Shown here: positions 1,061 to 45,211 of the stretch, one piece after another
How the letters are laid out: each line of letters opens with the position of its first letter
How positions within the stretch are numbered: the first letter of the stretch is position 1
Assembly: GCF_000184685.1 (NCBI RefSeq)
Contig: NC_014830.1
Location: 434,001 to 498,000 of the forward strand
DNA: 64,000 bases
Source: Intrasporangium calvum DSM 43043
GTDB taxonomy: Bacteria > Actinomycetota > Actinomycetes > Actinomycetales > Dermatophilaceae
Direction: 5' to 3'
The notes under the pieces: model-generated
What the model saw: only the letters and a program-made list of their open reading frames with translations
Databases searched by the model: none
What the model was told of the DNA's origin: nothing
Program-made: the position numbers and the translations under genes

Positions 1061-3523
1061 GTGACTGTTGGACTGCCCGATCGGGCGCGCGTCGTCGTCA
1101 TCGGTGGTGGGGTCATCGGCTCCTCCGTGGCCTACCACCTGGCCCACGCAGGCTGGACGGATGTCGTCGTGCTGGAGCGGGACCGGCTGACGTCCGGCAC
1201 GACCTGGCACGCGGCCGGGCTGATGACCTGCTTCGGGTCGACGTCAGAGACGAGCACGGCGATCCGCCTCTACTCCCGGGACCTCTACGCGAGGCTGGAG
1301 GCCGAGACCGGCCAGTCGACCGGCTTCCGCCCCGTCGGCCTCATCGAGGCGGCGGCTGACCGGGACCGCCTGGAGGAGTACCGCCGCGTTGCCGCGTTCC
1401 AGCGCCACCTCGGGCTGGAGGTGCACGAGATCTCGCCGACCGAGATGGCCGAGCGGTTCCCATGGGCGAGGACGGACGACCTGCTCGGGGGCTTCTTCGT
1501 CCCCGGCGATGGCCGGGTCAACCCGGTCGATCTGACGATGGCCCTGGCCAAGGGGGCGCGGGCACTCGGGGTCCGGGTGGTCGAGGGCGTCGCCGTGACC
1601 GACGTGCTGACCTCGGGGGGCGCCGTCACGGGTGTGCGTGCGGCGGGCCAGACGATCGAGTGCGAGTACGTCGTCAACTGCACCGGCATGTGGGCGCGCG
1701 AGCTCGGGGAGCGCAACGGTGTCGTGATCCCCAACCAGGCAGCGGAGCACTACTACCTCATCACCGACACGATCGAGGGGCTCGACCCCAACGCGCCCGT
1801 CTTCGAGGACCCTTCGTCCTACGGCTACTACCGCGAGGAGGGCGGCGGCATGATGGTCGGCCTCTTCGAGCCCGAGGCCGCGGCCTGGCGCGTTGAGGGC
1901 ATCCCGTCCGACTTCTCCTTCGGGACGCTGCCTGCCGACTGGGACCGGATGGCGCCCTTCCTCGAGAAGGCGATGGCGCGGGTGCCGATCACCCAGGAGG
2001 TGGGCATCCGCACCTTCTTCTGCGGTCCGGAGTCCTTCACTCCCGACCTCGCACCCGCCGTCGGCGAGGCACCGGGCATCCGCGGTTACTTCGTCGCGGC
2101 CGGGATGAACTCGGTCGGCATCCTGTCCGCCGGTGGCCTCGGCCGCGTCCTCGCCCACTGGATCACGACGGGGCGGCCCGACGTCGACGTGACGGGCTTC
2201 AACGTCGACCGGTTCCGGGTCGACCAGCTCGAGCCGGCCTATCGGGCCGCCCGCACGGCCGAGGTCCTCGGGACGGTGTATGCCGCTCACACCCCGGGCA
2301 CGCAGCTGACCTCCGCGCGGGGTCGGCTCCTCTCGCCGGTCCACGACCGGCTCGTCGCGCAGGGCGGCTTGCTCCGCGAGGTGTCCGGCTGGGAAGGCGC
2401 CGACTGGTTCGCGGGAGCGGGGCGGACACCGGAAGCCGAGCCGACCTGGGGTCGAGCGCCGTGGTTCGAGCAGTGGGAGCAGGAGCACCGGGCGGTCCGG
2501 GAGGCGGTCGGGCTGATGGACCTGTCCTTCATGGCGAAGTTCCGGGTGCAGGGCCAGGGGGCCGGCTCCCTGCTGGATCGCCTGTCGGCGGCAGCCGTCA
2601 ACGGGGACCCGGGAGTGATCACCTACACCCAGTGGCTCAACGACGACGGACGGATCGAGGCCGACCTCACCGTGACCAAGCTCGACGACGACGACTTCTG
2701 GGTCGTCGCGTCGGACACGGCACACGGCCACGTCCGGGCCTGGCTGCACCGGTTCGTCGACGCGACCGTCTCGATCACCGACGTGACGGTCGACTACGCA
2801 CAGCTCAATGTGCAGGGGCCGCGGTCTCGTGACGTCCTCTCGGAGCTCACCGACGCCGACCTGACCACCGAGGCATTCGGCTTCCGCAGCGCCGGCTGGG
2901 TCGAGCTGGCTGGCACCCGCGTGCTCCTCGCCCGGATCACCTACCTCGGCGAGCTCGGCTACGAGCTCTACGTGCCGGCGGGTGACGCGCTCCGGGTCCA
3001 CGACGCGATCCAGTCCGCCGGCACCACTCACGGCCTGCGCCCAGTGGGGCTCAAGGCGCTCGCCTCCCTCCGGATGGAGAAGGCTTACCGGGACTACGGC
3101 CACGACATCGACAACACGGACTGCCCCCTCGAGGCCGGGCTGGGCTTCGCCCTCGCTCTGGACAAGCCCGCGGACTTCATCGGTCGGGAGGCGGTGCTGG
3201 CCCGGCAGGCAGCCAACGCCGCGGCTGGTGGGATGGCGCGGCGGATGGTCCAGGTCCGCCTGCTGGACCCGGGGCCGCTCCTCTTCCACGCCGAGATCGT
3301 GCTGCGGGACGGTCAGCCGGTCGGGTACGTGCGGGCCGGTTCCTACGGGTGGACCCTCGGCTCGGCCGTGGGGCTGGCCATGGTCGAAGGTGGGGGCCAG
3401 CCGGTGACCTCCGAGTGGCTCGCAAGCGGCAGGTGGGAGATCGACGTCGCAGGGACCCGGTGTGCGGCAGCGGTCTCCGTGCGCCCGATGTATGACCCCA
3501 CCAGCGCCCGCGTCCGACTCTGA
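1061..3523 (+). CDS. FAD oxidoreductase/aminomethyltransferase fusion (dimethylglycine/sarcosine oxidase-like)
   Basis: An 820-aa two-part enzyme. The N-terminal half is a DAO-type flavoprotein (GGGVIGSSVAYHLAHAGW dinucleotide loop near residue 10, then a GTTWHAAGL flavin-contact segment). The C-terminal half, from about residue 430, is a GcvT/aminomethyltransferase module (DRLSAAAVN, YTQWLNDDGRIEADLT, TYLGELGYELY) with its C-terminal barrel. This is the architecture of dimethylglycine oxidase and sarcosine dehydrogenase: oxidative N-demethylation with capture of the methylene group by tetrahydrofolate. The exact substrate is inferred. The GTG at 1061 is preferred over the GTG at 1055 because it matches leaderless spacing from TACGTT. 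The stop codon lies inside a 15-bp tandem repeat, so the last residues (ARVRL) are encoded by repeat DNA. Confidence 0.88.
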   Translation: MTVGLPDRARVVVIGGGVIGSSVAYHLAHAGWTDVVVLERDRLTSGTTWHAAGLMTCFGSTSETSTAIRLYSRDLYARLEAETGQSTGFRPVGLIEAAADRDRLEEYRRVAAFQRHLGLEVHEISPTEMAERFPWARTDDLLGGFFVPGDGRVNPVDLTMALAKGARALGVRVVEGVAVTDVLTSGGAVTGVRAAGQTIECEYVVNCTGMWARELGERNGVVIPNQAAEHYYLITDTIEGLDPNAPVFEDPSSYGYYREEGGGMMVGLFEPEAAAWRVEGIPSDFSFGTLPADWDRMAPFLEKAMARVPITQEVGIRTFFCGPESFTPDLAPAVGEAPGIRGYFVAAGMNSVGILSAGGLGRVLAHWITTGRPDVDVTGFNVDRFRVDQLEPAYRAARTAEVLGTVYAAHTPGTQLTSARGRLLSPVHDRLVAQGGLLREVSGWEGADWFAGAGRTPEAEPTWGRAPWFEQWEQEHRAVREAVGLMDLSFMAKFRVQGQGAGSLLDRLSAAAVNGDPGVITYTQWLNDDGRIEADLTVTKLDDDDFWVVASDTAHGHVRAWLHRFVDATVSITDVTVDYAQLNVQGPRSRDVLSELTDADLTTEAFGFRSAGWVELAGTRVLLARITYLGELGYELYVPAGDALRVHDAIQSAGTTHGLRPVGLKALASLRMEKAYRDYGHDIDNTDCPLEAGLGFALALDKPADFIGREAVLARQAANAAAGGMARRMVQVRLLDPGPLLFHAEIVLRDGQPVGYVRAGSYGWTLGSAVGLAMVEGGGQPVTSEWLASGRWEIDVAGTRCAAAVSVRPMYDPTSARVRL

Positions 3524-3569
3524 CGCGTCCGACTCTGACGCGTCCGACTCCGGGGCGTCCGACTCCGGG
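3510..3569 (+). repeat. 15-bp tandem repeat, four copies
   Basis: Units at 3510, 3525, 3540 and 3555 read GCGTCCGACTCTGAC twice and GCGTCCGACTCCGGG twice. The first copy contains the stop codon of the flavoprotein gene. The remainder lies between that gene and its terminator. Confidence 0.9.
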
Positions 3570-25246: not shown

Positions 25247-25273
25247 GGAGCGCTGCGGCATACACTGACCGTC

Positions 25274-25362
25274 GGCACCCCGCGTGGTGGTACCTCCCCG
25301 AACTCCCCCAGGGCAGGAATGCAGCAAGGGTAGGAGAGCTCTTCCAGGTACGCGGGGTGTCC
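25274..25362 (+). ncRNA. ffs: Small signal recognition particle RNA (4.5S)
   Basis: About 89 nt. The ends pair (GGCACCCCGCG with CGCGGGGTGTCC). The apical core carries the universally conserved bulges and tetraloop: CAGGGCAGGAATGCAGCAAG with the GGAA loop and AGCAA side, followed by GGGTAGGAG. It binds Ffh to direct membrane-protein insertion. TACACT at 25261-25266 is a fitting -10, starting transcription at about 25273. Confidence 0.93.
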
Positions 25363-25510
25363 CTCGTTCCCCAGCGCGCCGTTTCCCAGCGGCATCCCCA
25401 GCGCCATACCCCAGCAGGGTCCGCGTGCGGTCCAGGGGGTGGGGGAGCCGCGCGATGGAGCGCCCCCCCACCTCGGACCATCTGACGCGCTCCCCTGAGA
25501 GGCTTGCCCC

Positions 25511-41255: not shown

Positions 41256-44200
41256 TCAGTCGGCCTCGTCCGGCTCCGCCCCGGTCTCGATGACTCGCGA
41301 GGCGATCTCGCGCAGCTTGATGTTCCGGGCCTGGGAGGCCTGCTTGAGCCTCGTGAACGCCTCGGCGGGAGTCACCCGGTGACGTTCGATGAGGATGCCG
41401 ATGGCCTGGCCGATCATCCGGTGACTCTCGATGGCCCGGGACAGGTGCGACTCCCGGTCAGCGAAGGCCGTCGCCGCCACGACCCGGTCCACGGCGAGCG
41501 CGAAAGCCTGACCGAGCAGGTCGCCGACGATCCGCTCGTCGGTCGCGACCCGGCGGGGGCGCCGGAACTGCACCCAGACCCGGCACTCGGAAGAGGGGTG
41601 GTTCTGCGGGCTGATCAACAGCCCGGGGACGCGGTCGCTCGGCGCCGGCACCTCTGGCTCGATGGCCGTGAGCAGCTCCCACAGCGTGTCGTCCAGGTCG
41701 GCGCGACGCACCGGGCCCGCCGCCGTGAACACGTGCTCCTCCGGCCCGGCGAGGGCGCGGACCGTGGAGTCGCCGTCGAACAGGTCGGCGAAGCCGGTCA
41801 CCGCGGCCTCGAGCACCTGCTCGAGGTCCTCGGCGCGCCCGAACTCGGCGGACAGGGCCGCGGCGGCCTGGCGGCGCGCTCGAGCGGCATGCTCCCGGGT
41901 GACGTCCTGGAGTGACATCACGACGTAGTTGGGCTGGCCGCCGACGCTCTCGACCTCGCGCGTGCTCAGCCGCACCCAGACGTCCCGGTGATCCTTGGTG
42001 ACGAGCCGGCACTCGCGCCCGGTGATGGTCGCCCCCTGCAGCGCCTGCGCCAGGAGCTGTTCGACGTTCGCGCGGTCCGTCGGCGGCACATCGACCGCGT
42101 CGACCTCCGCAACCCCGGTCGGGGTCTGCACCGCCGGCCACCACGGGTGCGGAACGGAGAACGGCCCGTCGTCGGCGGAGAAGCCGAGCAGCTGGGTGAA
42201 GGCATCGTTGACCTCGACGACCTCACCTTCGGCATCCGTGATGAGCAGGGCGTCCTGGAACGACTCCATCACGGCCCGGCGCCACGCCGCGTCCCGCAAC
42301 CGGGCCCGGGACCGCTCGAGGTTGCTCGCGAGCCGGGCCTTCAGGTCGCCGACCGAGAACGGCTTGGAGACGTAGTCGTCGGCACCGGAGGTGAGGCCTT
42401 CGGTGGTGTCGCTCTCCGCTGCCCGCGCCGACAGGATGATGACGGGGACATCGCGCACGGCGGCGTTCATCCGGATCGCCCTCGTCAGCGCGAAGCCGTC
42501 GAGCCCGGGCATCATCGCGTCGGCCAGGACGATGTCGGGGCGCGAGGCGACGGCCCGCTGGAGCGCGGTCGTGCCGTCGGGCACCATCTCCACGTCGTAG
42601 TCCGACTCGAGCGCGCCGCGCAGATAGGTCCGCATGTCGCGGTTGTCCTCCGCCACGAGCAGCCGGGGCCGGGCCGCAGCGCCGTCCGGCACACTGCCGG
42701 CGGGTGACCCCGCCACAGCGGGAGGTCGGGAGGTTCGGGGAGCGGGCTCAGCGGCATACGGCTCATACCAGCCCTCCGCCTCGGCGAGGAAGGCGTCGGC
42801 GTTGCGCGGGGTGATGGAACGGCCGTCGGCCGGCTCGGCGGACTCGACGGGCGGGGTGCCCCAGGGCAGGCGGATGGTGAAGGTCGACCCGCGGCCGAGG
42901 GTGGACTCCACGTCGACGGAGCCGCCCATCAGCTCGGTCAGCTGCTTCACCATGGCGAGGCCGATCCCGGCGCCCCCCTGGAAGCGGGCCCTGCCGCGCC
43001 GGGGCAGCTGCTCGAAACGCTCGAAGATCCGGGCGAGGTCGCGACGGCGGATGCCGATGCCCGTGTCGGCGACCGATACGGCGAAACCGTCGGCGCTGCA
43101 CTCGAGCCGCAGCCGGACGCTGCCGGCGGGGGTGTACTTCAGGGCGTTGCTCAACAGGTTGAGCACGACCCGCTCGTACATGTCCCGGTCGAGGTGGGCG
43201 GTCCGCGGAGCGTGGTCGCAGTCGACGACGAAGTCCAGCCCGGCGCGGTCGAAGGCCTGCGTGAAGGAGTCGGCCATCGTCCGGGTCTGGAGCGCCACGT
43301 CGAGCGGCTCCGGCAGGGGCTGGAGCTTGTTGGCCGCCATCCGACCGAAGTCGAGCATGGCGTCGACCATGCGGGTCAGCCGAACGGTGTTGCGCTGGAC
43401 GAGGTCGAGGCGCTCGCGCTGCTCCGGGGTCAGACCGGGGTCGCCGAGCGCCTCGGCGACGGGGCCGGCGATGAGCGTGAGCGGGGTCCGCAGCTCGTGG
43501 CTGACGTTGGTGAAGAAGGAGCTCTTGGCGGCGTCGAGCACCTCGAGGGTCTCGGCCCGCTGACGTTCGGTGTCGAGCGTGCGGATCGCGCTCAGCGCCG
43601 TGCCCAGGTGCGTGACGCAAAGGGCCAGGTAGGTCGCGAGGGCGGGCTCCCAGGTGCGCTGGGAGGAGCGGCCGACGACGAGGACCTCGGACAGCTCCTC
43701 GTCACCGGGGAGGGCGATCGGCAGGGCGTGGAGCCCGGCCACCGACAGGCCGCTGTCGTGCAGGTGGACGGGGCTCGGCAGGTCGTGGTGGACCTGGTGC
43801 TGGAGCGTGGCCGCCTGGGTCGCCGCGGCGAGCACGTCCGCGCGCAGCTCCTCCGGGACGTCGAGGTCGCGGGGGTCGTCGGGCAGCGCCGCAGCGTCGA
43901 CCATGGCGACGACGGGGTGGTCCTGGGGGTTCGACAGGAGCACCTCGGCCGCGAGGCGCCGCACGTGCTCGGCGTCGGTCGCCTCACCGAGCCGCCTCGC
44001 GAGGACCCCGAGGGTGCCGAGGCGCCGCTCACTCAGCACGTGGTCGGTCGTCTCGGTGACTGCGGTGAAGACCCCGCCGACCTCGCCGGCCTCGCTGGTG
44101 ATGGGGCTGTACGAGAAGGTGAAGTAGCACTCCTCGGGGTAACCGTTGCGCTCGAGGATGAGCTTCTGGTCGCGGGACCACGTCGCGACCCCCGTCTCCA

Positions 44201-44528
44201 TGACCCGGTCGAGCATCGGCCCGATGGTGGCCCAGATCTCCGGCCAGACCTCCTTGCCGGCGCTGCCCAACGCGGCAGGGTGCTTCAGCCTGCCGAGCAT
44301 GGGGCGGTAGCCGTCGTTGTAGATCATGACGTACTGCGGTCCCCACCAGACGAGCATCGGGAACCTGGAGGTGAGGCAGATGCTCACGGCCCCGCGCAGC
44401 TCCGTCGGCCATTCGGAGATCGGGCCCAGCGGCGTGTGCGACCAGTCGATGGTGGCAAACCTGGCGCCGAGCTCTCCGGGATGGTCAGGAGCGATCTCGC
44501 GTCCAGGCACGCGAGGTGCTGCGGTCAT
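41256..44528 (-). CDS. Hybrid histidine kinase with REC, PAS, GAF and ANTAR modules
   Basis: A 1090-aa cytosolic sensor. Order: PAS-like domain (residues ~50-160), GAF-like domain (~180-320), HisKA with SHELRTPLTLIAGP (phospho-His ~341), HATPase (NLLSNALKYTP, VADTGIGIRRRDL, GGAGIGLAMVKQL), and a Pro-rich linker holding a family A repeat (~590). Then come a receiver (LLVAEDNRDMRTYL, phospho-Asp in LADAMMPGLDG ~669), a second PAS (~745-870), a second GAF (~900-1010) and a terminal ANTAR domain (HRMIGQAIGILIERHRVTPAEAF). ANTAR binds paired hairpins in RNA to stop termination. The protein could thus join histidine phosphorelay and RNA antitermination in one chain. The ATG at 44528 has GAAGG ~10 nt upstream. 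Confidence 0.9.
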   Translation of the reverse strand: MTAAPRVPGREIAPDHPGELGARFATIDWSHTPLGPISEWPTELRGAVSICLTSRFPMLVWWGPQYVMIYNDGYRPMLGRLKHPAALGSAGKEVWPEIWATIGPMLDRVMETGVATWSRDQKLILERNGYPEECYFTFSYSPITSEAGEVGGVFTAVTETTDHVLSERRLGTLGVLARRLGEATDAEHVRRLAAEVLLSNPQDHPVVAMVDAAALPDDPRDLDVPEELRADVLAAATQAATLQHQVHHDLPSPVHLHDSGLSVAGLHALPIALPGDEELSEVLVVGRSSQRTWEPALATYLALCVTHLGTALSAIRTLDTERQRAETLEVLDAAKSSFFTNVSHELRTPLTLIAGPVAEALGDPGLTPEQRERLDLVQRNTVRLTRMVDAMLDFGRMAANKLQPLPEPLDVALQTRTMADSFTQAFDRAGLDFVVDCDHAPRTAHLDRDMYERVVLNLLSNALKYTPAGSVRLRLECSADGFAVSVADTGIGIRRRDLARIFERFEQLPRRGRARFQGGAGIGLAMVKQLTELMGGSVDVESTLGRGSTFTIRLPWGTPPVESAEPADGRSITPRNADAFLAEAEGWYEPYAAEPAPRTSRPPAVAGSPAGSVPDGAAARPRLLVAEDNRDMRTYLRGALESDYDVEMVPDGTTALQRAVASRPDIVLADAMMPGLDGFALTRAIRMNAAVRDVPVIILSARAAESDTTEGLTSGADDYVSKPFSVGDLKARLASNLERSRARLRDAAWRRAVMESFQDALLITDAEGEVVEVNDAFTQLLGFSADDGPFSVPHPWWPAVQTPTGVAEVDAVDVPPTDRANVEQLLAQALQGATITGRECRLVTKDHRDVWVRLSTREVESVGGQPNYVVMSLQDVTREHAARARRQAAAALSAEFGRAEDLEQVLEAAVTGFADLFDGDSTVRALAGPEEHVFTAAGPVRRADLDDTLWELLTAIEPEVPAPSDRVPGLLISPQNHPSSECRVWVQFRRPRRVATDERIVGDLLGQAFALAVDRVVAATAFADRESHLSRAIESHRMIGQAIGILIERHRVTPAEAFTRLKQASQARNIKLREIASRVIETGAEPDEAD
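42746..42760 (+). repeat. Family A monomer inside the hybrid kinase gene
   Basis: GCTCAGCGGCATACG, 15 nt identical to the left arm at 10398. On the coding strand it is read as (P)YAAE in the linker between the ATPase and receiver domains. Confidence 0.75.
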
Positions 44529-44647: not shown

Positions 44648-45211
44648 TCAGCGAAGTCGGAAGACGGCGTCGAACGCCTCGAGGCTGCGACGGTGCAACT
44701 CGCTGAAGCCGACGTCCCTGGGACCCGGCCGCAGTGGCATGCTCGCCACCGAGCCGCCGATGAGGCGGGCGGCGGGATCCATCCACACGTCGACCAGCCC
44801 GATCCCGCGCGCCATGTGTTCCAGCTCGTGGTCCGGGACGGCGCCGAGCACGCGGGCCTCCACGTTCTCCTCCGCGCGGGTGTGGCCGCTCATGGCCTCC
44901 TCGAGGAGGCCGAAGTAGATCATGAAGTCCATCGAGGCGGGGTCCAGGCCCTCGAGACGCGTGATGACCGCTTCGATCTCGCGTTCCTCGACGACCCGAC
45001 CCTGGACCGCCGCCACGTCTCCCACGGACTTGAGCGCAACCGGGTGCATGAAGGTCTGCTCGGCGGACTCGTGGAGGGCGACGTACTGGAGCAGGTCGGC
45101 GACCGCCCCGTGTCGAGCGGTGCCGGAGGAGTCACCCACCCTGGAAAGCAGCATGCCGATGTGCGCGTGCTGGCGCTGCAGCACGCTGAGGAGGCTGTGC
45201 AGCGAGGACAT
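44648..45211 (-). CDS. Hemerythrin HHE domain protein
   Basis: A 187-aa helical protein with hemerythrin-like metal ligands: HAHIGMLLSRV near residue 15, HESAEQTFMHPV near residue 47, EEREIEAVITRLEGLD, and HTRAEENVEARV near residue 108. It probably binds a di-iron centre for oxygen/NO sensing or damage control. The C-terminal third (GLVDVWMDPAARLIGGS onward) is an extension beyond the four-helix bundle. A sigma-B-like promoter (GTTA-N14-GGGTAC) lies 35-60 bp upstream on the same strand. It is divergent from topoisomerase IB. Confidence 0.85.
   Translation of the reverse strand: MSSLHSLLSVLQRQHAHIGMLLSRVGDSSGTARHGAVADLLQYVALHESAEQTFMHPVALKSVGDVAAVQGRVVEEREIEAVITRLEGLDPASMDFMIYFGLLEEAMSGHTRAEENVEARVLGAVPDHELEHMARGIGLVDVWMDPAARLIGGSVASMPLRPGPRDVGFSELHRRSLEAFDAVFRLR

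Follow-up and report, generated by a model that had tools for sequence, protein, structure and literature searches.

Can a histidine kinase, its receiver and an ANTAR output work as one signal-to-RNA device within a single polypeptide chain? The question is raised by a gene of Intrasporangium calvum DSM 43043, which lies in the window, i.e., the 64,000-nucleotide stretch of DNA analysed here (positions 434001–498000 of the complete 4,024,382-base genome), whereas in known phosphorelay control of ANTAR proteins the kinase and the regulator are separate. The gene is an open reading frame with an ATG start and a GC3 of 0.93, and its product, P0001, is ordered PAS-GAF-HisKA-HATPase-REC-PAS-GAF-ANTAR, as follows.

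41256–44528, minus strand: hybrid histidine kinase with ANTAR output, 1090 amino acids (aa), with orthologues of identical order
44034–44366, minus strand: N-terminal PAS (aa ~55–165), the second PAS_4 stretch in P0001; model strands 58–159
43539–44036, minus strand: probable GAF-like domain 1 (aa ~165–330), from the helix/strand order of the model; no Pfam score in P0001
43335–43529, minus strand: HisKA dimerisation/phosphoacceptor domain (aa 334–398; Pfam PF00512, 7.8e-15), with H344 at 43497–43499
42864–43190, minus strand: HATPase_c catalytic domain (aa 447–555; Pfam PF02518, 3e-28)
42330–42659, minus strand: receiver (aa 624–733; Pfam PF00072, 3.2e-24), with the phospho-Asp D670 at 42519–42521
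41889–42278, minus strand: second PAS (aa 751–880; Pfam PAS_4/PAS, 2e-14), with fold matches to PAS/LOV chains at Z ~13
41529–41882, minus strand: probable GAF-like domain 2 (aa ~883–1000), from the model and a PAS-GAF match to DosP; no Pfam match
41379–41543, minus strand: single continuous helix from GAF2 to ANTAR helix 1 (aa 996–1050), predicted by AlphaFold models
41289–41447, minus strand: ANTAR (aa 1028–1080; Pfam PF03861, 4e-17)

The initial annotation had proposed this very order, and it holds: Pfam scores every domain except the two GAFs, whose assignment comes from structure models, the receiver Asp is present, and the ANTAR domain reaches 62.2 bits against a gathering cut-off of 27.3. 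The ANTAR forms three helices in the model and, in a phmmer comparison with structures, matches Rv1626 (2.8e-6), EutV (0.01) and PAL (0.054). AlphaFold models based on 24 and 37 homologues (mean pLDDT 81.8 and 87.4) show helix/strand orders like those of GAF domains in two places, one after PAS1 and ahead of HisKA, the other after PAS2 and ahead of the ANTAR. Over 242 residues, the model of the C-terminus can be superposed on the PAS-GAF region of DosP (Z 13.1, rmsd 7.4), and a Foldseek search with the full model returned mostly kinase matches that carry little information on the GAFs. In the homologue L017 the segment matching GAF1 scores as GAF_2, and the best PAS_4 stretch of the orthologue L022 covers aa 73–177, which supports the N-terminal PAS of the window protein. 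Since Pfam is silent and the basis is structure models, both GAF assignments are probable, not certain. An assembly artefact or a chance fusion can be dismissed, because the identical order is kept in other genera. At the level of sequence, the parts, their order, their intact catalytic residues and their conservation are thus evident.

The architecture is rare but not unique. Within the family, a sample of 60 genomes includes at least 7 that carry it. A strict profile search of 247 other genomes from the taxonomic order found no further case (1/248 with the window genome), and at E 1e-100 no other genome with this architecture appeared among 296 genomes of the phylum; those relatives there whose domains were scanned have a SpoIIE phosphatase or a second kinase block at their end. 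Scanning ~85 thousand species genomes with the C-terminal block yielded 35 clear relatives, many of them from metagenome assemblies: 23 combine kinase, receiver, PAS2-GAF2 and ANTAR (two without PAS1), one is interrupted by a contig end and 11 are without a kinase. The relatives belong to the Intrasporangiaceae (Intrasporangium, Terrabacter, Terracoccus, Humibacillus) and to the Propionibacteriales (Propionicimonas, Micropruina, Tessaracoccus); the closest named one is I. calvum PheN6, with a protein 84% identical, and no plasmid copies were found. With 23 further loci of the same order, the window protein therefore is no one-off, and the order PAS-GAF-HK-REC-PAS-GAF-ANTAR is common to some two dozen actinobacteria. 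None of the papers searched describes this order or links ANTAR domains to HspR or hybrid kinases; they include the accessible part of a 2012 catalogue of 17 ANTAR architectures (PMC3369931). Every part is already known, and the joined order and its linkage to a chaperone locus are undescribed in these papers.

Measured against known systems, the protein combines features of several classes. EutV (kinase EutW) and PdtaR/Rv1626 (kinase PdtaS) likewise employ His-Asp phosphotransfer to an ANTAR output, but there the kinase is separate and the receiver is linked to the ANTAR by a coiled coil, whereas the window protein holds kinase, receiver and ANTAR in one chain and inserts a PAS-GAF pair between receiver and ANTAR. 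One-component proteins such as NasR, PAL and the GAF-ANTAR proteins share with it a sensor that adjoins the ANTAR (in the window protein, a GAF-like domain and helix according to the model), yet lack both kinase and receiver; isolated PAS-GAF-ANTAR relatives of the hybrid are of this kind. The supposedly unusual placement of the ANTAR therefore needs qualification: it directly follows a GAF-like domain, as is usual, and what is unusual is the kinase-receiver block fused upstream. Two further chains, L076 from Tessaracoccus lapidicaptus and L024, also unite kinase, receiver and ANTAR, but have no PAS-GAF between receiver and ANTAR, and L076 in addition is without N-terminal sensors. As a side observation, these chains (L076:4723-6234 and L024:7576-10332) resemble an EutW-EutV or PdtaS-PdtaR pair fused. 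A parallel upstream of the output is offered by L028–L031, hybrid kinases of presumably Streptomyces-like and other actinobacterial genomes, ordered PAS-GAF-HK-REC-PAS-SpoIIE-HATPase_c_2. They are 36–38% identical to the window protein from PAS1 through PAS2, with alignments reaching aa 932–1033, and share its domain order up to PAS2, but end in a SpoIIE-type phosphatase and a second ATPase domain instead of an ANTAR; the SpoIIE domain is present in L028–L031, L040 and L017 and absent in P0001. Given the shared PAS1-PAS2 core and the SpoIIE end in relatives, the ANTAR hybrids are most readily understood as this sensor core with a swapped output.

The genomic context of the hybrids points to stress physiology. 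In 13 of 13 loci of the Terrabacter group (L052, L055, L056, L058–L063, L068, L071–L073; e.g., L055:1-10889), the hybrid gene lies between hspR and clpB, on the same strand and beside dnaK, in the order dnaK-grpE-dnaJ-hspR-hybrid-(second ANTAR protein, 9/13)-RraB-like-clpB; no RraB was detected in the chaperone locus of L061. The 13 hybrids form one clade (99/92). Inverted repeats resembling HspR operators (TTGAGT-N7-ACTCAA, no more than one mismatch) occur before clpB in all 13 loci, and before dnaK wherever that region is covered. The second ANTAR protein (L055:7084-7938 and eight other loci) stands alone directly 3' of the hybrid and is ~40% identical to its C-terminus. I. calvum, PheN6 and I. 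chromatireducens carry a dnaK-hspR cluster without an ANTAR gene. In the window, the hybrid gene converges on a DUF6766 gene and is preceded by one neighbour.

44648–45211, minus strand: hemerythrin-domain gene, upstream of the hybrid gene and co-directional with it, at a 119-nt gap; same order in PheN6

The hemerythrin gene is a possible operon partner of the hybrid. DUF6766 and FAD-oxidoreductase neighbours are common to the window locus and to a kinase-less PAS-GAF-ANTAR locus (L069:7035-7691 and 2008-3555). In the Propionibacteriales, a sigma-70 family factor and/or CsbD is found near the ANTAR protein; loci with the sigma factor, often along with CsbD, are L047 (7103-7996), L050, L044, L048, L057, L064, L070 and L075. 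Comparison thus supports stress physiology as the common thread of the hybrid neighbourhoods, as an association and not as a function. With the hybrid placed in the chaperone cluster of 13 loci, stress signals are likely to act through it on RNA, not DNA.

Taken together, we read the window protein as a soluble, stress-signalling hybrid histidine kinase with an ANTAR output that probably binds RNA, and assign this reading a probability of roughly 0.55. PAS1-GAF1 would respond to a cytoplasmic signal by regulating autophosphorylation at H344, from where the phosphate would pass to D670 of the same protein or of the dimer partner. The phosphorylated receiver, together with PAS2-GAF2 as a second input, would then rearrange the dimer along the 55-residue GAF2-ANTAR helix, whereupon the paired ANTAR domains would attach to stem-loops of target transcripts and change their antitermination or translation. 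The steps up to phosphotransfer are supported by residue conservation and by the joint loss of kinase and receiver, whereas those after it are modelled on EutV and PAL; the input signal, the change in the dimer, the binding of RNA and the target transcripts are what we infer. Several findings count against this reading: the residues by which EutV contacts RNA are changed, canonical target hairpins were not found, the I. calvum hybrid is not near its own dnaK operon, the 64,000-nt window contains no HspR-operator-like site, and relatives without a kinase exist, so that the kinase is dispensable for the role of the ANTAR in some lineages. A bolder proposal for the whole family, which we hold only tentatively, is that a cis His-Asp relay and the second PAS-GAF jointly control RNA binding, and that the Terrabacter group recruited the hybrid into the DnaK/HspR/ClpB locus as a post-transcriptional arm of the heat-shock/proteotoxic response. 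The linkage to the chaperone locus makes RNA-level control in the actinobacterial stress response a testable guess.

How far the kinase matters is the first point on which another explanation can be built: PAS2-GAF2-ANTAR might be the real, one-component switch, and the attached kinase-receiver part a minor modulator or phosphate sink. The relatives indeed form a natural deletion series. The 11 kinase-less proteins keep PAS2-GAF2-ANTAR (one of them GAF2-ANTAR by search); L057, L065, L067, L069 and L070 consist of these three domains, L053 is a GAF1-PAS2-GAF2-ANTAR protein with HK-REC missing between GAF1 and PAS2, L048 keeps only the ATPase end and a degenerate receiver upstream of the C-terminal block, and L064, L066 and L074 carry pseudo-receivers. 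In a tree of the C-terminal block, which is unrooted and includes several long rows, the kinase-less proteins are nested among hybrids within the Propionibacteriales, and HK-REC therefore was probably lost several times in this order. The ANTAR directly following GAF2 in the model fits a one-component switch as well.

The catalytic parts tell against it. The window protein has the sequence features of a hybrid kinase, a phosphoacceptor His, N/G1/G2 boxes and a complete receiver after the kinase, and it keeps H344, N457, the G1 and G2 boxes, E627/D628, D670, S700, Y719 and K722. Kinase and receiver catalytic residues are intact in 24/24 aligned hybrids, including the switch Tyr Y719; H344, the N/G1/G2 residues, D628, D670, Y719 and K722 are invariant in this 24-row alignment, and the acidic pair, Asp, S/T, Tyr and Lys of the receiver are found in all 24 as well as in L076 and L024. 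The Intrasporangiaceae preserve every catalytic residue of HK-REC over a long divergence (~46% identity), and L076 is an HK-REC-ANTAR protein that retains this part without N-terminal sensors and without PAS2-GAF2 (L024, PAS-HK-REC-ANTAR). Conversely, all four kinase-less relatives with a receiver (L048, L064, L066, L074) have lost essential receiver residues, and in the other kinase-less proteins the receiver is absent. The receiver is intact along with the kinase and degenerate or lost without it, a pattern that favours phosphotransfer from kinase to receiver inside the protein and gives the strongest evidence that the kinase of the same chain serves the receiver. A purely one-component switch hence seems unlikely, and the comparison supports two separable inputs. 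Since kinase and ANTAR share a chain and relatives miss either half, the joint control of RNA binding by phosphorylation and ligand sensing could be dissected in this family.

The output domain itself bears on a further alternative, according to which RNA binding by the ANTAR is lost or altered and the domain serves for dimerisation or protein docking, with the hybrid acting via another partner. EutV contacts its hexaloops via R142, K143, K147, K149, E160, Y164 and M172, and the dimeric protein uses its coiled coil for stable RNA binding (PMC8934654). The continuous helix that leads into the ANTAR of the window protein offers a parallel to this coiled coil and speaks for the main reading. In an ungapped alignment the first four positions correspond to H1036, R1037, Q1041 and I1043 of the window protein, and the last three to P1054, F1058 and Q1066. 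Across the hybrids, Arg142 is replaced by His/Gln, Lys147 by Gln/His and Met172 by Gln/Leu, which are non-conservative changes, and at the position of Lys149, the residue in contact with loop G4, 24/24 have Ile or Val; the exchanges of K143 for R and of Y164 for F are conservative. These substitutions favour a docking role, as does the failure to find a target RNA in the window or genome-wide. The same lysine is missing in 9/22 aligned ANTARs, a small sample of 20 hand-picked from the family and two others of I. calvum, which places the hybrid ANTAR in a common divergent subclass and draws attention to ANTARs without this key RNA-contact residue. The I. calvum genome encodes three ANTAR proteins: the window hybrid and, classed by ANTAR sequence only, a PdtaR-like and a shorter sensor-type protein. 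Against a docking role, no module of the hybrid C-terminus is as well conserved as the ANTAR (G1040, A1042, G1044, E1048–H1050, F1058, S1065, N1069), and the aromatic residue that stacks on G4 is Phe in 24/24 hybrids, as in PAL, a protein reported to bind RNA that also has Q at the K147 position and keeps the lysine. We therefore find a mere docking module doubtful, and RNA binding by the hybrid ANTAR plausible by analogy.

The suggestion that the protein acts on transcripts in this genome was not borne out by the target search. A descriptor for paired hexaloops (two stems, each of 4 bp or more, A..G.. loops with A1 and G4, linker 2–25) retrieved 6 sites in the window against an expectation of ~3, none of them in a credible position for a leader, and one non-conserved site in the 13 chaperone loci. 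A covariance model, built from 14 artificial descriptor sequences and not from real RNAs, had its best genome-wide match at E 0.6 inside a long open reading frame, which is therefore put down to chance. Rfam returned only an SRP RNA and tRNA in the window, and nothing in the chaperone loci; the former is a bacterial small SRP RNA at 25271–25369 on the plus strand (62.5 bits). A hairpin upstream of the window hybrid gene was rejected, as it lacks conservation in PheN6 and is no more stably folded than shuffled sequences.

Finally, hybrid-kinase receivers are commonly intermediary (PMC9981736), but passage of the phosphate via an Hpt or HisKA protein to another response regulator, with the ANTAR as a side output, is highly improbable here, since no Hpt domain was found in the I. 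calvum genome by a search positive in 8/14 control genomes, an output domain comes after the receiver, the switch residues Y719 and S700 are kept, and a FATGUY motif was not seen by eye. Without Hpt an onward multi-step relay is unlikely, and the receiver of the window protein is probably terminal. The self-contained switch envisaged by the initial annotation gains indirect support from the absent Hpt and from receiver integrity that tracks the kinase in relatives, while its action on transcripts in this genome is without support.

According to a survey of actinobacteria, most species have one to three ANTAR RNAs per genome, often at the ribosome-binding site (PMC8164766). The leader between hspR and the hybrid gene (L055:3793-3965 and nine aligned loci, alignment A5) is 71% conserved and can fold two small hexaloop hairpins, TGCC[GCCGGA]GGCA and, over the Shine-Dalgarno/start, GGT[CGTGTG]ACC. 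Their loops have G at position 4, not A at position 1, and display no covariation; the two hairpins are a weak candidate for autoregulation.
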